64,000 bases of DNA, taken from positions 1-64,000 of the forward strand of contig CATLOT010000014.1 of assembly GCA_950054155.1 (NCBI GenBank), read 5' to 3'. The notes beneath the pieces were generated by a model. That model did not search any database, was not told the origin of the DNA, and saw only the letters and a program-made list of their open reading frames with translations. The first letter of the stretch is position 1. Each line of letters begins with the position of its first letter. The translations under genes and the position numbers were made by a program. The stretch is from an uncultured Bacteriovoracaceae bacterium. Its GTDB lineage: Bacteria; Bdellovibrionota; Bacteriovoracia; Bacteriovoracales; Bacteriovoracaceae. Shown in pieces: positions 58,987 to 63,158 of this stretch.

Positions 58987-60135
58987 TTATAGTCCCCAAA
59001 TAATGTTATAAAATTCAATTAAACTTTTTGCCCTTGTAAGGTCACCGGATATAGAAAAATCCTCCTCTCTGTCCCTTCTATAATAATTTTCAGTGTACCA
59101 AGTATAGGTCGGAAAAATATCAAGTAGGGTTACAGTCGGCTCTTCAATTTCACCTGCGACAACAATTGCTTTAATGTAAGAATCTACAATAAAACGAGTC
59201 AGCACATTGGGTGCTTTAACCTTTTCTTTGAACTTCTTAAAAATCTCAACCATACCAGGCGTAAATTCATCAAACCGAATTGTGACGTCACTTTTTAGAA
59301 AACTTTCAACTACCTCTAATGTTGTAGAATCAAAAGAGATGCAGCTTATTTGATTATAGATTTGTACTGCTTCAAAGAGTTCCATTTCATCTCGAAGAGC
59401 AATTTTCTTTGCCGCTTCCAGATGACGCATTCTAGACTTGTTATTCTCCGAATGAATGCAACCACTTATATTGCGAAAAGCCTTAGAGAGTTCAAGTCTT
59501 GTAAAGGGGCCATTCCCTTGTGGATCTTTAACCGCCAGTCTCGTTACAATCTCTCTCTCTAAGAAGGCCGTAATTTGATTTGATAGTGAATAATTAGATG
59601 TACCGTCGGCACTTCCTGACTCAAGGCCCGCAACACCAGCAAGCTCATGGTGAACGATGAGATACTGATCATTAATATCCTTTTCCAAAAGTTGCTTAGA
59701 GTTACAGATCATCATTGGAATCGATTCATCTGTAATAAAATTCACACACATCTTTTCTTTATTCTCCACCATAATAGGCTTACTAATACAGGTGACTTGA
59801 GTTTCTCTAATGGCCGTCGTCATTTTTTCTTCGTAATCTGCAATCGTTACTGAATCCTCTAATTTTAAGGAAAGATGACCTTCCTCTCCAATCCAGCGCT
59901 CAATATCCTCACTAATCTCTCTGATTTTTTGCTCACAGATATCACCTCCGTTTCCCTTGTCTCCAGAAAGTTGCAGAACTTCCTCACTAAGAGAGCGGTT
60001 TCTCATAAAAGATTCAATCTCTTCATAAGTCACCTGCGTGACTAACGAAGAATCAGTTGGTGGCGCCGCAAGAGGTAAGACCTCATTGGCATTAATCGTA
60101 GTACAAACTAATAAAAGTCCGATGAGTGATTTCAT
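58987..60135 (-). CDS. secreted protein with HHELAGVAG motif, TIGR02147 partner
   Basis: The 382-residue product has a signal peptide ending TINA. GDKGNGGD (58-65) and VHHELAGVAG (161-170, His162, His163, Glu164) are its notable motifs; the latter recalls metal-site helices but lacks a full HExxH. The rest is mostly helical with several Cys. Its ATG overlaps the TIGR02147 regulator's stop by 4 bases (ATGA), so the two are produced together. Function unknown. Confidence 0.75.
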   Translation of the reverse strand: MKSLIGLLLVCTTINANEVLPLAAPPTDSSLVTQVTYEEIESFMRNRSLSEEVLQLSGDKGNGGDICEQKIREISEDIERWIGEEGHLSLKLEDSVTIADYEEKMTTAIRETQVTCISKPIMVENKEKMCVNFITDESIPMMICNSKQLLEKDINDQYLIVHHELAGVAGLESGSADGTSNYSLSNQITAFLEREIVTRLAVKDPQGNGPFTRLELSKAFRNISGCIHSENNKSRMRHLEAAKKIALRDEMELFEAVQIYNQISCISFDSTTLEVVESFLKSDVTIRFDEFTPGMVEIFKKFKEKVKAPNVLTRFIVDSYIKAIVVAGEIEEPTVTLLDIFPTYTWYTENYYRRDREEDFSISGDLTRAKSLIEFYNIIWGL

Positions 60136-60917
60136 TGCATTTTCTCCTGATCATTTAAATTACTTAAGGGGTAGAGTTGAATAGCGAGATTATAAACTTC
60201 TGTTTTATTTCCTGTTTGAAAGAGTGCTGACATCTTTTGGCGAAACTCTCTAATAATTTTCTTAGCTTCTTGAACCTGTTCCACATCAATAGCGACAGTC
60301 ACTGAAGAGAAGTCCCTGAGATGAACGTCAACGTCCTCAAGCTTTTCCTTTCCTAAATCAAGAGTCTCTTGATGGGAAACCTGGAGGGCCTTACTGACAA
60401 CATCTTCCGTTGTTTTGATGCCTTTATTTACTTTTATGAAAGAGCTTCCCTCTTTTTTGAGAAGACCTGACTCTAATAAATTATGAACCACCACATCAGC
60501 TCGATGAGAAGTAAGGTCAAGCTTACTCGCAATCGAAGCCAGGGTGACCTCAAAACCATCGAGCTCAAAGAGCTCTAAAACAGCGTAATGTTCCCACTCT
60601 GAAATGACCTTGTAGTAGGACTCATCCAGAAGAAAGCGCTTATCTTCTTCTATAATAATATCTTCTAGAGAAGCCTGCTTCTTTCCGACACTCTGATTGA
60701 AGAGCTGCTCTTCAATCGGGCTAAGCTTTAATTTCTTTATGATCGTGCTGGCCTTCTTCAAAGGAAAGGCCCTCTCCCCTCTCATAATCTTTCCGAGAGA
60801 AGAGCTATCAATCTCAAGGTCCCTTGAGAAGGCACGCATGGAGTAGTGGGCATTAACCCTTTGCTTCTCCGAGAAAGCTTCCTTGAGCTTTTGAATATGA
60901 TAGCGATCTGTGTTCAT
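60132..60917 (-). CDS. TIGR02147-family DNA-binding protein
   Basis: The 261-residue soluble protein begins with an N-terminal helix-turn-helix (YSMRAFSRDLEIDSSSLGKI, about residues 25-45) followed by MRGERAFPLKKASTIIKKL. A second winged-helix-like region (ASIASKLDLTSHRADVVVHNL) and the C-terminal block with SSVTVAID and KIIREFRQKMSAL complete the TIGR02147 architecture, which is common in Fibrobacteres and Bdellovibrionota. It is likely an auto-regulated transcription factor for its downstream partner. Inverted TGCCGCA elements lie just upstream of its ATG. Confidence 0.9.
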   Translation of the reverse strand: MNTDRYHIQKLKEAFSEKQRVNAHYSMRAFSRDLEIDSSSLGKIMRGERAFPLKKASTIIKKLKLSPIEEQLFNQSVGKKQASLEDIIIEEDKRFLLDESYYKVISEWEHYAVLELFELDGFEVTLASIASKLDLTSHRADVVVHNLLESGLLKKEGSSFIKVNKGIKTTEDVVSKALQVSHQETLDLGKEKLEDVDVHLRDFSSVTVAIDVEQVQEAKKIIREFRQKMSALFQTGNKTEVYNLAIQLYPLSNLNDQEKMQ

Positions 60918-60936
60918 GAGCTTCTTTTAGCACAGC

Positions 60937-60997
60937 TTGCCGCAGAGTGCGGCAAAATGAAAAAAGTACAACGAGAAAGCGCGGCTCATCTGCCGCA
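60937..60997. promoter_or_regulatory. TGCCGCA inverted repeats, candidate operator
   Basis: A perfect inverted repeat TTGCCGCA-GAG-TGCGGCAA (60937-60955) lies 20 bases upstream of the regulator's start codon. A third TGCCGCA is at 60991-60997, where GCGGC (60981-60985) can pair with it. It sits in the 204-base divergent region between the regulator and the gene at 61122, so one protein could control both directions. The rest of that region (to 61121) shows no certain promoter. Confidence 0.5.
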
Positions 60998-61121
60998 CCC
61001 CCTAAAATAGCCATTATTGACTGTCTAAAACTTAGGCAGCCCCCTAAAAGCTTTACCCTAGAACCCCCTCCGAGGTGCCCTGTTGCTATATTTGGAAAAA
61101 ACAAAAACCAAGGATCACTCC

Positions 61122-61727
61122 GTGAAGAAAACACTCTCTTTCGCTCTTTTAGCGACTCTATTTTCAGCACAAGCTAAGCTTAATACAGTCAAAGTTTTTG
61201 ACGGCTCACTTGCTACCTGTAAAACAGAGAAAGATGTCAATGAAGTTAGAAATCAATTGGGTGCCTACCGAGCAAAAGCCCTAAGTGCAACACTGACTGA
61301 AGATGAGAATGTTCAAATTAAGATCGCCCTCTCTTTTCTTCAATGTGTAAACGAAGATTCTAAAATTGGCTTCAAGCTCCAATCCCCACTTGAGACTATT
61401 ACTTCACGCTCCTTTAAAGGCGATGAGATTACTATCTTTGTTAATAAGGCACGTGTGAAATCATTCAAAGACGGTGTCTACACAATCCTCTCCAATACTC
61501 AACTTGATGATAAGGCCGTTCAGGTTCACACCATCGAAGTTCCCCTCAAAGAAATTCTCAATGGAGAAGGCTCCGAGCACGCAAGTCTTGACCTCTTTAT
61601 CCAAAAAGATATTAAAGTCGAAAATACGTCATCAAGTGAAATGGTAATGGAAGATGTCAGAAGCTTCGGTAAGTTTCGCATCCACCTCAAGGTCGACTCT
61701 GAAACAAAAAAGGTCACGATTAAATGA
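61122..61727 (+). CDS. secreted protein, unknown function
   Basis: The start is GTG at 61122, with AAGGA about 8 bases upstream; it opens a signal peptide (MKKTLSFALLATLFSAQA-like, read with GTG as Met). The 201-residue product has two Cys (ATCKTE, LQCVNE) and a strand-rich second half (DEITIFVNKARVKSFKDGVY). The next gene starts by a 4-base overlap. No family is recognised. It diverges from the TIGR02147 regulator. Confidence 0.72.
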   Translation: MKKTLSFALLATLFSAQAKLNTVKVFDGSLATCKTEKDVNEVRNQLGAYRAKALSATLTEDENVQIKIALSFLQCVNEDSKIGFKLQSPLETITSRSFKGDEITIFVNKARVKSFKDGVYTILSNTQLDDKAVQVHTIEVPLKEILNGEGSEHASLDLFIQKDIKVENTSSSEMVMEDVRSFGKFRIHLKVDSETKKVTIK

Positions 61728-62329
61728 AGAAGGTCTTAAGCACTTTTTTATTTCTTCTTTGTGCGACAACTCTAGCAACAGAATATGTTGTGGTAGGCGT
61801 TTCAGGCTTTGGAACCAGAAAGCCTGAAAATGCCTGGCAACCCAGTGCTGCTCATGACCTGCTTCCCACCATGGGAAAGATTTATTCGCAACACAAGATT
61901 GTTCACTATGCAAAGACAGCTGAACTTCAGGAAATTGTCGATGAATTTGAGTGTAACGAGGGAAAGCAACAAAGAGATGATCTTAAGCTTATCGTTCTCG
62001 TTAATAGCTGGGGTTCAGGAAAGGGGCATAAACTTGCTCAGATGTATAAGAAGCAATGCGGACAGTTGGCAGAGGCTTTTTATATCGTCGACGGTGTTAA
62101 GAAACCTATTGGACCTTTCAAAAAGAAGATTCTCGCCAACTCTTGCTACAATATCTATCAGAGAAAAGGTGCTGTTCGTGGTAATAAAATTAAAGGCTGT
62201 GAGAATATTAACCTCACAAGTGAGTGCGATGTCCTAGGCTATGGCGGAGTGAAATGCCATATTCATGCAGAGTGGACAGGTGGCCAGCACTTTGCTGACC
62301 ACATGAGAGAGAATTACCTCTTTAACTAA
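61724..62329 (+). CDS. secreted protein, alpha/beta-hydrolase-like start
   Basis: The ATG overlaps the previous stop as ATGA. The 201-residue product has a signal peptide ending TTLAT. EYVVVGVSGFGTR and DLKLIVLVNSWGSGKGHKLA look like the first strand and nucleophile-elbow strand of an alpha/beta hydrolase, but the nucleophile motif is not standard (NSWGSG). Six Cys are present. It ends next to the convergent bacterioferritin gene. The fold assignment is tentative. Confidence 0.7.
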   Translation: MKKVLSTFLFLLCATTLATEYVVVGVSGFGTRKPENAWQPSAAHDLLPTMGKIYSQHKIVHYAKTAELQEIVDEFECNEGKQQRDDLKLIVLVNSWGSGKGHKLAQMYKKQCGQLAEAFYIVDGVKKPIGPFKKKILANSCYNIYQRKGAVRGNKIKGCENINLTSECDVLGYGGVKCHIHAEWTGGQHFADHMRENYLFN

Positions 62330-62332
62330 GTC

Positions 62333-62818
62333 TTAGTGATTAGCTTCATCAGGTGTCATCTGCGCCTGAATGAAGTTTTGGATACCAACTTGCTTAATAA
62401 GGTGTTGCTGAGTTTCAAGCCAGTCAACATGGTGCTCTTCAGACTCAAGAATGGAGCGAAAGAGATCACGCGAAACATAATCACGCTCTTTTTCAGCTAA
62501 CTCAATACAGTCTTTAAGATGAGGAACAGCTGCATGCTCAACCTTAAGGTCGCACTCAATAACTTCCTCAATATTAGTACCAATCATGACTCTTTCAAGC
62601 TTTTGAACATTAGGTAGCCCCTCAAGAAAGAGAATGCGCTTTATGAGTTCATCAGCATGCTTCATCTCATCAATGGAAGCATCGTATTCAAGCCTTGCAA
62701 GCTTATTCATTCCCCAATCCTCAAGCATTCTTGAGTGGAGGAAATATTGATTAATTGCAGTGAGTTCTTTTGTGAGAACAGAGTTAAGGGCGTCGATCAC
62801 CGCCTGTGAACCTTTCAT
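62333..62818 (-). CDS. bfr: bacterioferritin
   Basis: Bfr stores iron in a 24-mer. The 161-residue protein keeps all ferroxidase ligands at the E. coli positions: E18, E51, H54, E94, E127 and H130, and the haem ligand M52 (in DEMKHAD). It is therefore likely a haem-containing, active bacterioferritin. It follows the Bfd gene by 30 bases on the same strand. Confidence 0.97.
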   Translation of the reverse strand: MKGSQAVIDALNSVLTKELTAINQYFLHSRMLEDWGMNKLARLEYDASIDEMKHADELIKRILFLEGLPNVQKLERVMIGTNIEEVIECDLKVEHAAVPHLKDCIELAEKERDYVSRDLFRSILESEEHHVDWLETQQHLIKQVGIQNFIQAQMTPDEANH

Positions 62819-62848: not shown

Positions 62849-63043
62849 CTAGTTCTTTTTTGCTATATTAGAGTCTTTGGAGGCCATTTGCATACCCACT
62901 TTTTCAAGGGCATCCATCAAACACACTCCACAGGACTGGCCGAGGTTTAATTTTCTTAAGGCATCATTGAGGTTACCCTTCGTTGCCTGAACGGTTTCCT
63001 CTAATTCCTTCTCTGTAATTTTGTGACAAATACATGCGTACAT
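62849..63043 (-). CDS. bfd: bacterioferritin-associated ferredoxin
   Basis: The 64-residue protein starts MYACICHKITE at the ATG at 63043. Its four Cys, C4-x-C6 and C38-x2-C41, bind one [2Fe-2S] cluster in the BFD-like fold. Bfd reduces bacterioferritin's iron core so that iron is released, and the bfr gene follows 30 bases on. No Fur box is evident upstream. Confidence 0.95.
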   Translation of the reverse strand: MYACICHKITEKELEETVQATKGNLNDALRKLNLGQSCGVCLMDALEKVGMQMASKDSNIAKKN

Positions 63044-63158
63044 AGCCAAATACCTCTAACACCAATACTAGCACAGGTGTTTGAAAGATCAAACTAAAAC
63101 AGTTATCGGCTAATTTTTATCACACTTTATAAATTTTAATAGGTTAGAAGCTATTTTT

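Follow-up and report, generated by a model that had tools for sequence, protein, structure and literature searches.

Which genes does the TIGR02147 regulator encoded at 60132-60917 (reverse strand) control, and by way of which DNA element? In the window, i.e. the whole 64,000-nucleotide stretch of DNA analysed here, a palindrome lies between this regulator, with a secreted protein encoded downstream of it, and two secreted proteins encoded on the opposite strand; the sequence-only reading had taken the four genes and the intergenic region between them for a self-contained regulated module, perhaps with a surface or predatory activity. Comparison with related genomes points to a smaller unit, probably a two-gene cassette in which the regulator reads the palindrome in its own promoter via residue 38 and base -4, with autorepression as the simplest reading.

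Results

Organization of the locus

Gene order, strands and both ATGA couplings proved to be as first described. The regulator gene overlaps that of sec382, a secreted partner of 382 residues (58987-60135, reverse strand), at 60132/60135; on the forward strand the gene for secreted protein A (61122-61727), which has a GTG start and its own ribosome site, overlaps that for secreted protein B (61724-62329) at 61724/61727. Signal peptides were assigned by eye and with a simple rule rather than with a dedicated predictor. With sec382, A and B, no Pfam or NCBIfam family scored above cut-off. The locus adjoins two genes which we take to encode a bacterioferritin-like protein (62333-62818) and a BFD-like ferredoxin (62849-63049); a homolog of the bacterioferritin-like gene is likewise accompanied, in a related genome (G020, locus L163), by a TIGR02147 gene and a homolog of sec382.

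The regulator was correctly recognised as TIGR02147 from its sequence: it scores 99.8 bits with this profile (NCBIfam cut-off 50) and 138.8 bits with DUF4423 (PF14394; Pfam cut-off 30), and is by profile score a member of the TIGR02147 (Fsuc_second)/DUF4423 family. With HTH_3/XRE it scores 18.4 bits, below the Pfam cut-off of 23. Its AF2 model (pLDDT 91.5) has a helical N-terminal HTH, and the architecture comprises an N-terminal XRE/HigA-like HTH, with a recognition helix at approximately residues 38-45 that includes S38 and K43, a MarR-like winged HTH (~96-161) and a C-terminal DUF4423 part. Foldseek comparison of the regulator fold with the PDB gave partial HTH or winged-HTH matches only, none with E < 0.001, and the family profile matches HigA (2icp) with E 3e-6. 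The window genome (3.52 Mb in 61 contigs), the closest named relatives of which are Halobacteriovoraceae and other Bacteriovoracia (Bdellovibrionota), contains eight TIGR02147-family matches, five of them above cut-off; among the relatives searched there are up to 24 copies per genome.

The regulator and its secreted partner

From the relatives of the window genome 103 TIGR02147 genes were gathered as homologs, and directly downstream of 78 of them lies a signal-bearing ORF, which in most cases overlaps the regulator gene or starts no more than 10 bp from it. Close to the mature N-terminus, 61 of these 78 partners have a GNGGD-like motif, compared with 14 of 137 other secreted ORFs at the same loci. 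sec382 itself has the motifs GDKGNGGD and HHELAGVAGLE...NYSLSNQ, and its homologs in G023 (two), G020 and G049 each adjoin a TIGR02147 gene. Judged by these gene neighbourhoods, the conserved unit is two genes, a regulator and a secreted GNGGD protein.

Many of the partners recall the zincin metallopeptidases (selecase, HtpX, M60 and others) in that 61/78 contain an HE pair and 13/78 a true HExxH, the partners at L046 and L139 among them. In sec382, however, the HExxH zinc motif is absent, with a degenerate HE motif, HELAG, in its place, which argues against counting it as a zincin metallopeptidase. Its predicted fold is confident mainly over residues 60-200, and several of its weak Foldseek matches are Zn-peptidases; since neither profile nor Foldseek searches gave a significant family match, 'zincin-like' is at best a lead.

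The palindrome and its conservation

The palindrome reported between the divergent genes, TTGCCGCA-GAG-TGCGGCAA, was located exactly at 60937-60955, against a shuffled-sequence expectation of 0.08 sites even when up to 3 mismatches are allowed; in reverse-strand letters it reads TTGCCGCA-CTC-TGCGGCAA, a candidate operator centred at -29 from the regulator ATG. The third TGCCGCA was likewise found, at 60991-60997, where it makes up half of a second, everted pair (CGCGGC-TCATC-TGCCGCA, 60980-60997). The same intergenic region contains a direct repeat, CCCCCTAAAA, at 60998-61007 and 61040-61049, with no further exact copies in the window.

The palindrome has a single exact copy in its own genome, in which copies with 3 mismatches are at control level and no further target rises above chance. 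Among 129 genomes of the order it is present in two, both times before orthologous regulators. The closest ortholog of the regulator, 55% identical and from another genus (L039/L165 in G015), has TTGCCGCA-CCC-TGCGGCAA centred at -30 in its promoter, i.e. identical arms around a different 3-nt spacer, and keeps the distal pair 10 bp (one helical turn, counted by hand) closer to the palindrome. In the same-genus genomes no ortholog of the regulator was found, the best matches being ~30% identical. The sequence-only reading had held that its operator would fall if the palindrome were not conserved at orthologous loci, and the exact copy before the L039 ortholog upholds it on that point.

Sequence inspection and the family promoter geometry (see below) place the predicted promoter elements of the regulator at 60918-60931 (reverse strand), with a predicted -10, GCTAAA, 8 nt before the regulator ATG and a transcript predicted to be leaderless. 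The would-be -35 is TTGCCG, within the palindrome itself, with an 18-bp spacer, and the same arrangement is seen in L039. The operator is conserved in the orthologs' own promoters, as expected for an autoregulator that reads this palindrome. By this comparison autoregulation is well supported, and the window palindrome is very probably the operator to which its adjacent TIGR02147 regulator would bind.

The divergent genes A and B

The intergenic region is common to both sides of the locus, and a single operator might control the regulator operon together with A and B. That such regulators can gain targets beyond their own operon is seen in G049 (L213/L215): the regulator there has a sec382 homolog as its partner, and 2.2 kb away a second operator copy with a similar promoter (L215:3910-4030, G049:C65) precedes a further secreted gene, in front of a cluster of small secreted proteins. 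From its promoter, this cluster is a likely extra regulon member, and the copying of the operator to another secreted-gene cluster makes extra targets possible in principle. For A and B, however, the distribution in other genomes argues otherwise. Homologs of A are found in 10 other genomes and of B in five, including same-genus orthologs of B without the regulator; at the loci inspected, none of them lies next to a TIGR02147 gene, nor do A and B adjoin each other, so the shared intergenic region is probably incidental. Moreover, the gene divergent from the L039 regulator is unrelated to A, and 167 bp separate the proximal palindrome from the start of A, which has a ribosome site of its own. 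The B homologs are 49-61% identical and of no known family, and GVSGFGTR and NSWGSG look conserved in them.

The four-gene divergent module was rejected on this distribution of A and B, and we consider it unlikely that they belong to the regulon. What survives of the self-contained module is the conserved pair of regulator and secreted partner, with A and B outside it; the four-gene unit with a shared operator does not stand.

A family operator and promoter geometry

Further named loci were added to the 103 homologs. Twelve upstreams have a palindrome in which arms of at least 8 flank a 3-nt spacer, against 0.5 expected after shuffling, and when aligned these palindromes consist of variable arms around an oriented CA-CTT-TG core. 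With at most one mismatch, this core is found in the -55 to -51 bin of 31/130 unique upstreams, compared with ~2 per bin elsewhere, whereas its reverse complement gives no positional peak in the same set, i.e. the core is used in one orientation only. The operator is centred near -51, 16 bp before the TTGAC -35 box of an apparently leaderless promoter: in 37 core-bearing loci, TTG(AC) lies at +16, TA at +39 and the start codon near +52, corresponding to a -35, a 17-bp spacer, a -10 and a predicted transcription start at the start codon. In the same 37 loci a third, everted half-site 6 bp upstream has a mean of 3.14/7 matches, compared with ~1.2-2.1 at other spacings, and reaches at least 6/7 matches in nine.

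Of 107 regulator promoters, 22 have the exact core in that position, as do none of 184 other promoters of the same loci, whereas for generic palindromes the excess of the regulator promoters (25/107) over the controls (18/184) is only about twofold. In these promoters the strong signal is the core, its position and the covariation described below, not generic palindromes. A recognisable core is present in only about a third of TIGR02147 genes, and the window palindrome, at -29, is unlike the common -51; on inspection, several regulators closely related to that of the window combine the -51 element with a proximal site near -30 (L039/L165, L168 and L169, with more degenerate forms in L166 and L181).

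A separate TIGR02147 group (L045, L075, L083, L088, L090, L129 and L192) has a lipoprotein partner starting SCASY.PG.Y or similar, and an operator of the type TGAAACA-n-TGTTTCA in most cases. At L221 (G001:C291) an operator-like GACCACTTTGGTC lies beside a TIGR02147 gene with its core oriented opposite to the gene.

A residue-to-base rule

When all residue columns were compared with the operator bases, mutual information was highest for bases -4, -5, -6 and -7 with residues 38, 43, 43 and 49, respectively, which lie within or adjoin the recognition helix. Base -4 is concordant with the class of residue 38 at 36/36 loci, i.e. A with P/A/V (24), C with H (5) and G with S/N/D (7), a set that includes new loci found by pattern scans and omits three further loci with arms unequal at -4. 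An A-type scan of 369 genomes (TGCNACACTTTGTNGCA) returned nine matches, with none in the control; five of the nine have a TIGR02147 start codon at +51 to +54, and three of these five were previously unseen loci (L206, L208 and L209), all with P38. The G rule had been seen in the window, L039, L056 and L103 (S or N) before the corresponding G(-4) scan of 369 genomes, which returned five matches, four of them before TIGR02147 genes; residue 38 is S in the window and D, S and S at the three new loci, D having joined the class afterwards. For C(-4), a blind test of the pairing with H38 used a 13-base pattern and was uninformative, its 17 matches being mostly chance.

In a phylogeny from which the HTH columns were omitted, base -4 and residue 38 each change nine times. 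Only a few independent pairs fall on well-supported branches (2 and 1), all of them concordant, which leaves the phylogenetic test weak when taken by itself. A guessed rule by which E43 reads G(-5) was ruled out, E43 occurring with A(-5) in 9/9 cases. Taken over these protein-operator pairs, the covariation shows that the recognition helix predicts part of the operator word across the TIGR02147 family.

The covariation bears on what kind of element the palindrome is. With its fixed orientation and position relative to the promoter, the CACTTTG core might be a promoter element for another factor, such as a shared activator or an alternative sigma factor, the arms being incidental. The exact core is missing at that position from the 184 other promoters of the same loci, and the arms form a palindrome whose bases vary together with the adjacent HTH, which makes this decidedly improbable. 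Less probable still is an RNA hairpin (an attenuator or terminator) rather than a DNA operator: the perfect 8-bp stem and 3-nt loop near the start codon, and a distal pair flagged as terminator-like, would suit one, but in most relatives with a recognisable site the element lies upstream of the -35 and would stay untranscribed, the spacer letters are conserved and oriented, and the arm bases track the recognition helix of the adjacent protein. Palindromes of similar length do occur in other promoters, but this one recurs exactly before the orthologous regulator and is absent from the rest of the 129 genomes, which makes a chance palindrome beside an unrelated regulator very unlikely, to the point of being negligible.

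Discussion

At the level of sequence, the analysis establishes conservation, position, promoter spacing, covariation of HTH and operator, and linkage to the partner. The mechanism that we propose is that the locus would be one copy of a repeated cassette, the regulator and its GNGGD partner being translated from the same mRNA; the N-terminal HTH would bind the palindrome as a dimer, with residue 38, a serine in this regulator, reading base -4, which is G at this site, and the regulator would repress the regulator-partner operon until some signal lifts the repression. At the window locus and at its ortholog, the perfect palindrome extends over both the -35 and the spacer, which makes autorepression the simplest reading, whereas in most members with a recognisable site the position just upstream of the -35 suggests activation. 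We lean, with some reserve, towards repression at the window locus.

The regulator resembles the HigA-type XRE antitoxins/autorepressors in its HTH and in its predicted autoregulation through a palindrome in its own promoter, but differs by the extra winged HTH and DUF4423 part, and its partner is secreted and encoded downstream, in contrast with HigA's cytoplasmic toxin. Assignment as a type II toxin-antitoxin system was rejected, because the partner starts with a signal peptide-like stretch. The ComR/PrgX/Rgg-type peptide-responsive regulators similarly pair an HTH regulator with a secreted product, and PrgX and ComR are among the weak Foldseek matches (E ~0.1); however, the model of the window regulator is without a TPR-like helical repeat, and the partners here are proteins of roughly 90-600 residues rather than short pheromones.

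In the literature covered by our search for TIGR02147, Fsuc_second and GNGGD, which took in few subscription journals, no paper names TIGR02147 and none describes a function, an operator or a partner for the family, and earlier work may exist; one paper lists the DUF4423 protein Bd3700 as upregulated during growth in prey. Local palindrome autoregulators are common and, as far as the literature search shows, what is new is the operator, promoter geometry, residue-to-base rule and GNGGD linkage of the TIGR02147 family.

A further, quite unlikely reading is that the TIGR02147 cassettes form a large set of parallel, mutually insulated switches within a single cell, with separate operator words, each regulator sensing its own GNGGD partner as an unexported precursor or a returned fragment; if so, the bacterium would monitor export or its environment channel by channel. 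Together, the operator, its promoter geometry, the rule that links residue to base and the recurring secreted partner may make many TIGR02147 regulators testable at once; in predatory bacteria and related organisms, their targets would become predictable from the sequence.
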